This document shows positions 8,984 to 11,265 of a stretch of DNA of 61,871 bases, in pieces. The stretch covers positions 1 to 61,871 of the forward strand of contig JAHHIL010000028.1 in NCBI GenBank assembly GCA_019358975.1, in the 5' to 3' direction. A program made the translations under genes and the position numbers. The notes under the pieces are model-generated. The model saw only the letters and a list, made by a program, of their open reading frames with translations, was not told the DNA's origin and made no database searches. The stretch's first letter is position 1. The number at the start of each line of letters is the position of its first letter. Source of the stretch: Trichocoleus desertorum ATA4-8-CV12 (GTDB lineage Bacteria; Cyanobacteriota; Cyanobacteriia; FACHB-46).

Positions 8984-9015
8984 CTATTCTAACCTCACTT
9001 ATCCGATCGCACAGG
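8984..9015 (+). repeat. Copy 2 of the 32-bp repeat flanking Uma2
   Basis: Matches 8260-8291. It overlaps the last codons and stop of the Ro60-like gene on the other strand, so one side of the Uma2 insertion or duplication touches that gene's end. The encoded peptide [16 protein letters not shown] is close to that of copy 1. Confidence 0.5.
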
Positions 9016-10428
9016 GAGTGCAGTGTCCAGAATCTCCATCAGTAGATCTAGCCGAGAAGGGCGCGTCAGCAGTGGTACGAGATTGGGCAAGCTGTAGTAG
9101 TCTCCTGCAAACGTGAACGTCTCCACAGGCAGTTGCTTCTGCTTCAGTTGCTGCTCCACATAGTTGTAGTGGGTTCCAACTCGGACAATTACCACATTGG
9201 GCATCACTGCAAACTCGCGCTGGTAGCTCAAGTAAGCCTCCAGGAAGTAAGGAGAAGCATTCTCACCTTCGTCTGTGACGATGATGATTTGGTCTACAAT
9301 TTGGCGCTTCTTCCGCATGGCCTCCAGCGCACAACCAATACTGGTACTGCTGCCTGCCTTGATGTGGTGGAAAGCCCGCTCCCAATCAGTCAACTCCTTG
9401 CCCTGTGCAACCACAGGATAAGGAAGGGTGTCGAAAGCGTAGACAAACAGATCCGCCTCAGTGATACCAGAGATCAGCGCTGCCAGTCGCTTACCCAGCT
9501 CGATCGCATTCTCCATCGAACCAGATTTGTCTACAAACAGAGCCGTCGGACGGGTAATCGTACCGCGCCGCTTCACCTGCTCGTTGGTCACCTTCTCCAA
9601 CCGCGCCACCGTATCTTCATCCAGCTCCACAGCGTCCGCAGCCACTTGTGCCTTATATGCGGCAACCCGTGTTCCCTGAGCTGCTTGATCCAGCTTGGTA
9701 TCAATCAACGCTTTCACCTCTGGGTGATCCATTGCCCCTCTCACCTTGAGAGATTTGAGGTTATTGATCACTTCCTGGGGAGACATGCTGTTAATCAGCG
9801 CCACCAGAACCGTAGGAGTCAGTTGCTTAACTGCACCGATCGCGATCGCATAGGGCAGATTAAACTCCACGATCAACCGCGCCTGTTCTGCTGCAGTGGT
9901 AGTCTTGGCAAGCTGCTTCAACACATCCGCCAGAGAACCGACAGGAGGCTGGTCGTGGAATAGAATCGCATTCGCCCGCTCACTAGGCTTGATGTGCAGC
10001 GACGCATACAGGTGCTTCATTGCCTTTCGTCCTCGAAGAGCCGCGCGATCGAACAGGGCAAAATTGCTTTCCCGCACCTTCAGATAGCGTTGCACCGCAG
10101 TCCGAGCAGAACGAGGGAGCTTATTTCGGTGTTGCTTCATAAAGTCCACCACCCGTGCCACTTGATAAGGCGGGAACTCTTGGAGCATGATGAATCCTGC
10201 ATCTCGGTGTTCGGTCAAATCGCTAGTCAGCAGATGCGCGACAAATACTTCTTTGTGATCGCGCACATCACCATTGCGGTGATACCAGACTGCCAGATGC
10301 CCGTAAAAGATCGGGTCAACTTCTACAAATAATTGATGAATTTCTGCCACTTGCTCTAGTTTGCGGTGAGGAGTAGTGAGCAAGCTGTTGAGCATCTCCA
10401 GCCGCAGATCTCGTTCGGCGTTGTTCAT
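8995..10428 (-). CDS. Ro60-like RNA-binding protein (helical TROVE-like region plus vWA domain)
   Basis: 477 residues from the ATG at 10428, fixed by AAGGAGG eight bases upstream. Residues 1-250 are a run of amphipathic helices ([50 protein letters not shown]), like the HEAT-type ring of Ro60/TROVE proteins. Residues 294-470 form a vWA domain with a complete MIDAS: D300-x-S302-x-S304 in FVDKSGSM, S361/T362 in GSSTSIG, and D386 in VTDEGEN. In Ro60 and bacterial Rsr this arrangement forms a ring that binds misfolded RNA inside and Y RNA outside. Three structured RNAs lie directly upstream on the same strand. It differs enough from textbook TROVE proteins that a database search would probably give only a vWA hit. 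Confidence 0.75.
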
Positions 10429-10488
10429 GGTCGTATCCTCCTTGTTAATAGTCAGGAGGCGATCGCCGCAGTGCATGGCAAACAATAA

Positions 10489-10565
10489 CCGCGCAAGTCG
10501 GAAGAACAAAGTTCACAGGTCTTGTGCTTAAAACAAGTGTGTAAGTTCTTCCCGTTGGGGCGCGG
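10489..10565 (-). ncRNA. Y-RNA-like structured RNA, copy A (77 nt)
   Basis: On the minus strand the ends CCGCGC and GCGCGG pair. An internal loop follows, with ACTTG on the 3' side, and then an 8-bp perfect stem (10500-10507 with 10545-10552, GGAAGAAC/GTTCTTCC). The head is one hairpin, CTTGT-7 nt-ACAAG (10521-10537), whose loop TTTAAGC looks like an anticodon loop. It shares its two end motifs with copies B and C and lies 49 bases before the ribosome site region of the Ro60-like gene. Confidence 0.6.
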
Positions 10566-10613
10566 CGATCGCGTTAAAAAGATAAAATTTTGGTCAAATT
10601 GGGCAAAGCATTA

Positions 10614-10803
10614 CCGCGCAAGTTGCAGAAGCTAGGTCAGGGCTGATTGTTGGATGCTAAATACCAAGAGCTTCCCCAGCATTTAGCATTCCTTCTCAGC
10701 ACTATTTGTGCCTGCTATCGGTCTCAGGCTTGCAGCGTATCCCTCCAGATACGCACCGTTGGTTTGGTTAGAGAGTATGTAAGCTTCTGCGATCGGGGCG
10801 CGG
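10614..10803 (-). ncRNA. Y-RNA-like structured RNA, copy B (190 nt)
   Basis: It has the same terminal CCGCGC/GCGCGG pairing and a 9-bp perfect second stem (10625-10633 with 10782-10790, GCAGAAGCT/AGCTTCTGC). On the minus strand the 5' arm continues TTACATACTC, as in copy C. The head is larger, with several hairpins: GCGTATC/GATACGC (10735-10754), GCCTG/CAGGC, GCAC/GTGC and a 9-bp ATGCTAAAT/ATTTAGCAT. The T-arm-like sequence of copy C is not conserved here. No reading frame of note is present. Confidence 0.6.
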
Positions 10804-10840
10804 CAATGATCGCCTCACTGCCAAATTGAATTAGGTCACC

Positions 10841-10957
10841 TCGTGCAAGTTGAAAAAGCAATTGTGTTATACACAGGAATCGAACCTGTAGTACTTGATC
10901 TCAAATCAAGTGCCTTACCGTTTGGCGAGTATGTATGCTTCTTCTATTAGGGCACGA
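10841..10957 (-). ncRNA. YrlA-like RNA with tRNA-like head, copy C (117 nt)
   Basis: Terminal TCGTGC/GCACGA pairing and a second stem (10852-10860 with 10936-10944, one G-U) match the plan of copies A and B. On the minus strand the head holds three tRNA arms in order. They are a D arm GCC-AAACGGTAA-GGC, an anticodon arm CTTGA-TTTGAGA-TCAAG, and a T arm ACAGG-TTCGATT-CCTGT with a canonical T loop. The acceptor is reduced to about 4 bp (ATAC/GTAT) and runs into the Y-like stem, so this is not a working tRNA. It begins 14 bases after the stop of the small gene at 10972. Confidence 0.7.
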
Positions 10958-10971
10958 AGTAGAAAGATTGT

Positions 10972-11172
10972 TTAGCCGTAAACCGCTTCAGGAAGGATGA
11001 TTAAATCTCCACTGGGTCGGCGATCGACCACATAAGCAGAGAGCCGATTTGCTTGAACATCGAGATGTTGAGAGACTCGCTCTTTGACGGCAACATCATT
11101 CATGCCTGCGGTAATGCCCAACTGATTTTCTGCGATGTCGAGCGATCGCCCTTCAAATCGAATATGAACCAT
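10972..11172 (-). CDS. Small conserved protein of the Ro60-like operon
   Basis: 66 residues: [20 protein letters not shown], a charged middle ([19 protein letters not shown]), and a strand-rich end, [23 protein letters not shown] choose the ATG at 11172 because GGGAGG ends eight bases before it; the ATG at 11178 and GTG at 11181 are too close to that site. Similar short proteins ending in PEAVYG occur in cyanobacteria, without an assigned role as far as I recall. The beta-turn-beta, helix, strand pattern would suit a small beta-grasp or ferredoxin-like fold, but that is a guess. Its stop lies 14 bp before RNA C, so it is the first gene of the operon. Confidence 0.75.
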
Positions 11173-11223
11173 TGCCATCACCTCCCATTGATGTTGCTTT
11201 CGGCGTTTTATCTCATGCTATAA

Positions 11224-11265
11224 GCATAATACAACATACTACAATCTGTCAATAGGATACTACAA
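11224..11265 (-). promoter_or_regulatory. Promoter with two ATACTACAA boxes for the Ro60-like operon
   Basis: On the minus strand a TTGACA (11252-11247) is followed 18 bases later by TATGCT, or by TATTAT at 15 bases. Two identical boxes, ATACTACAA at 11236-11244 and 11257-11265, straddle the TTGACA and are exactly 21 bp apart, two helical turns. This is a good geometry for a repressor or activator dimer of dimers. The same motif lies upstream of the NADAR gene. Confidence 0.5.

Follow-up and report, generated by a model that had tools for sequence, protein, structure and literature searches.

The window, a stretch of 61,871 nt from Trichocoleus desertorum ATA4-8-CV12 (GCA_019358975.1, contig JAHHIL010000028.1, positions 1-61,871, forward strand), encodes a divergent Ro60/Y-RNA system, an identity for which the support is strong. 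Judged by sequence, the RNA units of the family carry on a common base heads that mimic tRNA, permuted tRNA, helices H69-H71 of 23S rRNA, and the sarcin-ricin loop (SRL) together with the GTPase-associated centre (GAC). These heads would act as decoys or as docking tethers. The window holds a reduced version of the system with one tRNA mimic, two other heads and a truncated fourth unit. A sequence-only reading had proposed a divergent Ro/Y-RNA system for RNA quality control or stress, in which a small protein joins several RNAs that differ in head structure. Its identification was right, and it was incomplete: the mimic heads, the match of the promoter boxes to a TrcR site, the truncated fourth unit, the E1-like enzyme and the 277-aa protein were missing from it. 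RNA quality control may be the function.

A Ro60-fold protein and its Y-RNA-like units

The operon (8995-11265) is on the minus strand and has, from 5' to 3', a predicted promoter, the ORF of 66 aa, the three RNA units and then the ORF of 477 aa, in the order and on the strand that the sequence-only reading gave (Table 1). A NADAR-domain gene (5727-6164) and a DUF4291 gene (6321-6974) are located in a one-strand run between the Ro60-like and 277-aa genes. Each is found near the cluster in few loci only, and a TrcR-type box precedes the NADAR gene.

Table 1. Features of the Ro60-like cluster in the window
Feature	Positions	Strand	Remarks
TrcR-type box 1, TGTAGTAT	11257..11264	-	identical to the trn operon octamer of Anabaena (PMC10272220)
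TrcR-type box 2, TGTAGTAT	11236..11243	-	21 bp downstream of box 1
Predicted promoter	11223..11252	-	TTGACA 11247-11252 and TATTAT/TATGCT 11223-11231; read from sequence
66-aa small protein ORF	10972..11172	-	possibly ubiquitin-like; invariant C-terminal glycine
Y-type RNA 1, 121 nt	10839..10959	-	class T, tRNA-like head
Y-type RNA 2, 194 nt	10612..10805	-	class D head, GCGUAU..AUACGCUGCAAGCC
Y-type RNA 3, 81 nt	10487..10567	-	class S, short head
477-aa Ro60-fold protein (P0001), by model	8995..10428	-	helical N-terminus and vWA, intact MIDAS
Third TrcR-type box	6256..6263	-	ahead of truncated unit and NADAR gene
Truncated 5' half of class G unit	6165..6225 (about)	-	CTGCGTG CCCTAACC TTTAGAGC CTACATAC, then GTCTGAGAGGAACGGTAAC
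277-aa protein (B277)	4497..5330	-	linked in relatives and phages
E1-like (ThiF) adenylyltransferase	3857..4495	-	Pfam ThiF 3e-28

The AlphaFold model of P0001, based on 44 homologues, has a helical N-terminus and a C-terminal vWA domain (pLDDT 84.5, pTM 0.76). In a Foldseek search against the PDB, the first 13 matches were all Ro60/Rsr/TROVE proteins (best E 8.2e-12). VIA-align aligned the model with Ro60/Rsr over 431 residues (Z 22.5, 4.1 A, 15% identity). The comparison with the Ro60/Rsr rings, suggested by the sequence-only reading, gave a Ro60/Rsr-type fold, and the vWA domain with an intact MIDAS described there is borne out by D300, S302, S304, T362 and D386, which are invariant in the 44 homologues. 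Sequence identity to Ro60 is only 14-15%. Pfam TROVE (PF05731) did not match P0001 at E up to 1 and is absent among the 25 families listed for the 44 homologues. The vWA_Ro60 model matched 3 members only among the homologues (best E 0.003); other vWA models gave weak matches. Searches of P0001 with Pfam, NCBIfam, PDB sequences and PADLOC yielded no Ro60 assignment, and PHROGs provided only a weak match of the vWA part to an RNA-binding family. The Ro60-type identity is assigned because of the fold model, as aligned by Foldseek and VIA-align, and the invariant MIDAS, despite the absence of a TROVE match. The missing PF05731 match is a limit of sequence detection, and P0001 is therefore filed as a divergent relative by fold: according to the model, a Ro60-fold protein that escapes the sequence model of its family. 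The fold is shared with bacterial Rsr of the Y RNA/YrlA systems (RYPER of D. radiodurans; rsr-yrlBA-rtcBA of Salmonella); unlike Rsr, the window-type protein falls below Pfam TROVE detection.

The genome also has a canonical TROVE gene at another locus (L117, G000:C4), which contains none of the Y-type units described here. Two tandem tRNA-like RNAs of ~125 nt precede this gene (L117 ~1097-1380). They have acceptor, D and T arms, and a long insert replaces the anticodon arm. They are probably the partners of the ordinary Ro60 of this genome, built differently from the RNAs of the window.

The base that the three units share comprises P1 of 7 bp, an 8-nt strand of the CCC(C/U)RA type opposite RACUUG, P2 of 8 bp and NUACAYAC, followed by the head. 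With unpaired strands of 8 nt and 6 nt, a bulged C is one of several ways to draw this region. The three structured RNAs of the sequence-only reading are real, and all have the complementary ends, the unpaired ACTTG and CCC(Y)RA segments and the second stem seen there. Their lengths of 117, 190 and 77 nt had to be corrected: each RNA is 4 nt longer because P1 has 7 bp. Human Y RNAs carry the sequence ACUUG. As in vertebrate Ro60/Y RNAs, a 7-bp lower stem is followed by C-rich and ACUUG-type unpaired strands. The Ro site of vertebrate Y RNAs is described as a 7-bp helix, a bulged C and a three-nucleotide bulge (PMC4726728); the units differ from it in longer unpaired strands (8 nt opposite 6 nt), an 8-bp second stem and other heads.

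At least one unit lies between the small and the large gene in all 87 operons that are complete from one to the other (mean 3.3), and up to 8 RNAs occur per operon in the family. Homologous operons without a paired-end RNA, which the sequence-only reading had considered as evidence against its proposal, were not among the 87. A unit finder requiring P1, a CC-rich loop, P2 and CUUG detected 401 units on the coding strand upstream of homologous genes and 0 on the opposite strand (413 kb). A coding spacer was considered and rejected: ORFs among the units in relatives are separate genes, and none of them is present in the spacer of the window operon.

The base covaries and co-occurs with the Ro60-like protein. 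In 150 cores, every P1 position was paired in 83-100% of the rows, with many compensatory types, and 94% of the P1 and P2 cells were paired versus 77% in shuffles. For 29 aligned tRNA-headed units, 24 of 32 pairs varied on both sides, compared with 13.1 in shuffles. The covariation score was 0.501 versus 0.216, and 0 of 500 shuffles attained 0.501; sliding controls were far lower. The covariance model R1, built from tRNA-headed units only, scored 120 bits for RNA 1, 40.3 bits for RNA 3 and 33.9 bits for RNA 2, the latter two being found through their stems. In all nine genomes that encode P0001 it scored at least 102 bits; in 12 genomes lacking the protein, tRNA-like hits reached about 52 bits at most. 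Units thus co-occur with the protein (9/9 genomes with it, 0/12 without), which is predicted to bind them. Three strong tRNA-headed units (107-123 bits) lie on other contigs than the Ro60-like gene (G040:C35:3338-3458, G130:C17:25948-26067, G106:C108:85818-85938), pointing to extra units elsewhere in some genomes or to split assemblies.

Heads of the RNA units

RNA 1 has a tRNA-like head without a full acceptor stem (Rfam tRNA 44.8 bits, model positions 4-67; ARAGORN 'Ser UGA'). It belongs to class T, comprising 108 units and 39 more uncertain ones, in which a linear tRNA retains a 4-bp acceptor remnant. The loops are conserved, with U33 and purine 37 each in 27 of 29 units and U54/C56/A58 in 29 of 29. 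The anticodons are diverse, with 34 different ones in 107 loops. Class T has neither the 7-bp acceptor stem nor the conserved identity anticodon of a tRNA gene. Class P (63 units, 18 more uncertain) has a circularly permuted tRNA in the YrlA topology of T arm, closed acceptor and D arm. In relatives, class P matched the YrlA family RF02553 with at best 37.8 bits (E 3.2e-7, 201-nt search), below the gathering score of 69 bits. The three window RNAs, which are without a permuted tRNA head, were not among the matches to RF02553, and there was no YrlA match in this genome.

Some unclassified heads are also tRNA-like. Units of the '?' class in L005, L055, L058, L059, L068, L103, L106 and L108 carry a GC-rich hairpin within the T loop that resembles an interspersed repeat. 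Upstream of the small gene of L012 is an 84-nt miniature tmRNA-like element (608-691; Rfam tmRNA 54.2 bits, above the cut-off) and a weak permuted tmRNA match (637-795).

Two classes correspond to functional sites of the ribosome. The names H69-H71, SRL and GAC for the matched regions are taken as established knowledge of 23S rRNA; the matches themselves were computed. As there was no LSU rRNA match in this genome, the 23S rRNAs of genomes G276, G340 and G379 served as reference. Class R (30 units) contains AUAACGGUCCUAAGGUAGCGAAAUUC of 23S H69-H71; the H69 loop is the point at which it is opened and the Y stem attached. Its strict rRNA score had a median of 42, compared with a shuffled maximum of 27. 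Class G, located between the genes of the Ro60-like and 277-aa proteins, combines the SRL AGUACGAGAGGA with the GAC; 41 SRL 12-mers and 34 full units of about 206 nt were found. In strict scoring, the best rRNA match was the GAC and the second the SRL in 34 of 34 units. Strict scoring was adopted because loose gap costs left the GAC matches not cleanly separable from shuffles. The fourth unit of the window is a 5' stump of class G, and the sister genome G040 keeps an SRL unit downstream of the Ro60-like gene. The phage locus L141 has one R-like unit.

Classes D (n=16) and S (n=95), represented by RNA 2 and RNA 3, and the '?' heads gave no general signal above shuffles in a comparison with the 16S-23S operon. 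The exceptions were some '?' heads, which were recognised as tRNA-like, and one D head whose only hit fell outside the rRNA sites considered here.

Rsr/YrlA systems likewise encode several Y-type RNAs beside the protein, at least one of them with a tRNA-mimic head. Linear tRNA heads with a free anticodon and heads of 23S H69-H71, the SRL and the GTPase centre set the present family apart. The literature searched contained no earlier description of Y RNAs in cyanobacteria or of Y RNAs with rRNA mimicry; the clade may have prior mention.

Promoter boxes, associated genes and distribution

In Anabaena, TrcR is reported to repress the trn tRNA operon through TGTAGTAT and to repress rtcB as well; antibiotics that stress translation lift the repression (PMC10272220). 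The predicted promoter of the window operon has TTGACA plus a repeated TTGTAGTAT box. The paired boxes noticed in the sequence-only reading are exact copies of the TrcR site of the trn operon. With the copy before the G stump, the octamer occurs three times at these sites; chance would give 0.38 copies over the whole window. In 60 of 81 cyanobacterial loci it is present no more than 700 nt upstream of the small gene, in 31 of them with at least two copies (reversed-sequence control 0). It also precedes the 277-aa gene in 18 of 67 loci (control 0). An exact copy of the trcR autoregulatory motif is present in this genome and is followed by an ORF of 111 aa; the motif suggests that this ORF is TrcR. 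The boxes are consistent with an action of TrcR on the window operon. Beyond the box, the trn operon has a parallel in the tRNA arrays that some relatives carry immediately before the small gene. The searched text on the published TrcR regulon names no Ro60 or Y RNA genes. Unlike Salmonella rsr-yrlBA-rtcBA, the operon has TrcR-type boxes rather than RtcR, and no adjoining rtcBA was noted. A study of a cyanobacterial co-culture reports the genes of a TROVE protein and of an RtcB protein among those most strongly upregulated, the Ro60 type being unspecified in the part of the article consulted (PMC11423583, mSphere 2024).

The small protein may be ubiquitin-like. Its model (pLDDT 91) has two strands, helices and two strands, and the fold matches to ubiquitin and PB1 were weak (best E 0.38). 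G66 is invariant in a 36-row alignment, a single C-terminal G and not GG. Downstream, the 277-aa gene was found at 69 loci and the E1-like gene at 56; many loci are too short to show them. B277 had no match in Pfam, NCBIfam or PHROGs, and for the E1-like enzyme ThiF models scored above PRTRC_ThiF. Genes among the units of relatives code for a 241-aa protein (58 loci), an L7/L12-like protein (28; Pfam L12 C-terminal domain 2.7e-24) and a 154-aa protein (25). A small possibly ubiquitin-like protein with E1-like and L7/L12-like genes distinguishes the cluster from Rsr/YrlA systems. The small protein and a ThiF-type E1 are shared with prokaryotic ubiquitin-like/E1/JAB clusters (PRTRC and others; PMC1779556). 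A JAB-like protein was matched in phage copies only and in none of the cyanobacterial copies examined. Unlike those clusters, no E2 was seen, and the genes are joined to a Ro60-like particle.

P0001 homologues are encoded in 38 of 390 genomes of the class. In a species collection, 156 stretches had homologues, of which 80 loci were kept. Four IMG/VR contigs and one 595-kb phage genome encode homologues with 44-50% identity to P0001. In the phage loci L119, L120 and L141 it is accompanied by the small protein and by units, with tRNAs nearby. L121 and L122 encode the Ro60-like protein, a JAB-like gene and E1, and the unit finder detected no unit in them. In cyanobacteria, 21-31 tRNA genes lie just upstream of loci L031, L033 and L038.

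Decoys, tethers and other readings

The best explanation of the whole, to which we give an even chance, is a divergent Ro60/Y-RNA particle under TrcR control that displays tRNA and ribosome mimics as decoys. The operon would be held off by TrcR and switched on when translation is inhibited. The Ro60-like protein would grip each RNA by its base and display the heads. As decoys, these may capture RNase toxins, drugs or translation factors, agents whose targets are tRNA and functional sites of the ribosome. Meanwhile, Ro60 could stabilise the RNAs or direct damaged RNAs into decay or repair. A role in modifying or regulating the particle is predicted for the 66-aa protein, which may be ubiquitin-like, for the E1-like enzyme and for the 277-aa protein. 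Against this explanation, the window copy has only one recognisable mimic head, identity to Ro60 is low with no TROVE match, and the phage loci L121 and L122 gave no unit although they encode the protein.

A serious competitor, though on balance doubtful, is that the heads dock the Ro60-like ring to RNA enzymes such as PNPase, modification enzymes or RtcB for decay or repair of damaged tRNA and rRNA in translation stress, on the pattern of the Ro particles of D. radiodurans and Salmonella. YrlA and the Y RNA of D. radiodurans are described as acting with PNPase (PMC8394870; PMC4726728), class P heads have the YrlA topology and match RF02553, and rtcB is also under TrcR repression. Heads of classes P and R are without the anticodon and H69 loops that some cutters attack, so docking fits them better than a decoy. 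However, the SRL and the GTPase centre are sites of translation factors, toxins and drugs, not of known RNA decay enzymes, and docking needs no freely varying anticodon in an intact loop. Decoys are slightly favoured over tethers because toxins, drugs or factors act on the sites that are copied (tRNA with any anticodon, SRL, GAC, H69-H71), and because the anticodons vary while the loop geometry is kept; the inducing signal and the phage copies add to this. Both readings are live, and both may hold for different heads.

It is improbable that the heads are merely pieces of tRNA and rRNA picked up neutrally by a Y-RNA chassis, functionless in themselves. Insertions and odd heads do exist, and the fourth unit of the window is truncated, but the stems of the heads covary, the tRNA loops retain their residues, and functional rRNA motifs persist in R and G heads across many genera. 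Even less probable is a mainly regulatory leader in class G, binding L11 or the L7/L12-like protein and controlling the 277-aa and E1 genes. Ribosomal-protein leaders that mimic rRNA are of a known kind, the G unit is flanked by a promoter box and the 277-aa gene, and the operons encode an L7/L12-like protein. Yet 34 G units are closed by the common Y-type base with ACUUG and P1, and the SRL, tRNA and H69-H71 mimics have no such leader role. That RNA 1 is an ordinary tRNA-Ser gene lying by chance between two genes, as the Rfam and ARAGORN calls would have it, is hardly credible and was rejected, as it has no 7-bp acceptor stem, no CCA end and no long variable arm despite the serine call, its anticodon varies among related units, and it is closed by Y-type stems.

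The decoy reading can be extended, tentatively, to a stress-induced decoy ribosome kit on a Ro60-type hub. Copies of tRNA, GAC, SRL and H69-H71, with an L7/L12-like protein and a ubiquitin-like module, would counter toxins, drugs or hostile factors and be common to cyanobacteria and huge phages.

The purpose of tRNA look-alikes on bacterial Ro60 is still unsettled. In this family the mimicry reaches beyond tRNA to three functional sites of the ribosome, all on one conserved docking base. Bacterial Ro60 is probably undercounted, because the standard Pfam model misses this clade. The family also connects a Ro60-type particle with genes of ubiquitin-like type and with huge phages; some of these carry tRNA arrays, and defence against RNA-cutting toxins is a live question there. 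The promoter boxes tie the operon to a translation-stress regulon already described, in cyanobacteria that are amenable to genetics. Together with the mimicry of rRNA sites, this makes it directly testable what Y RNA mimicry is for.
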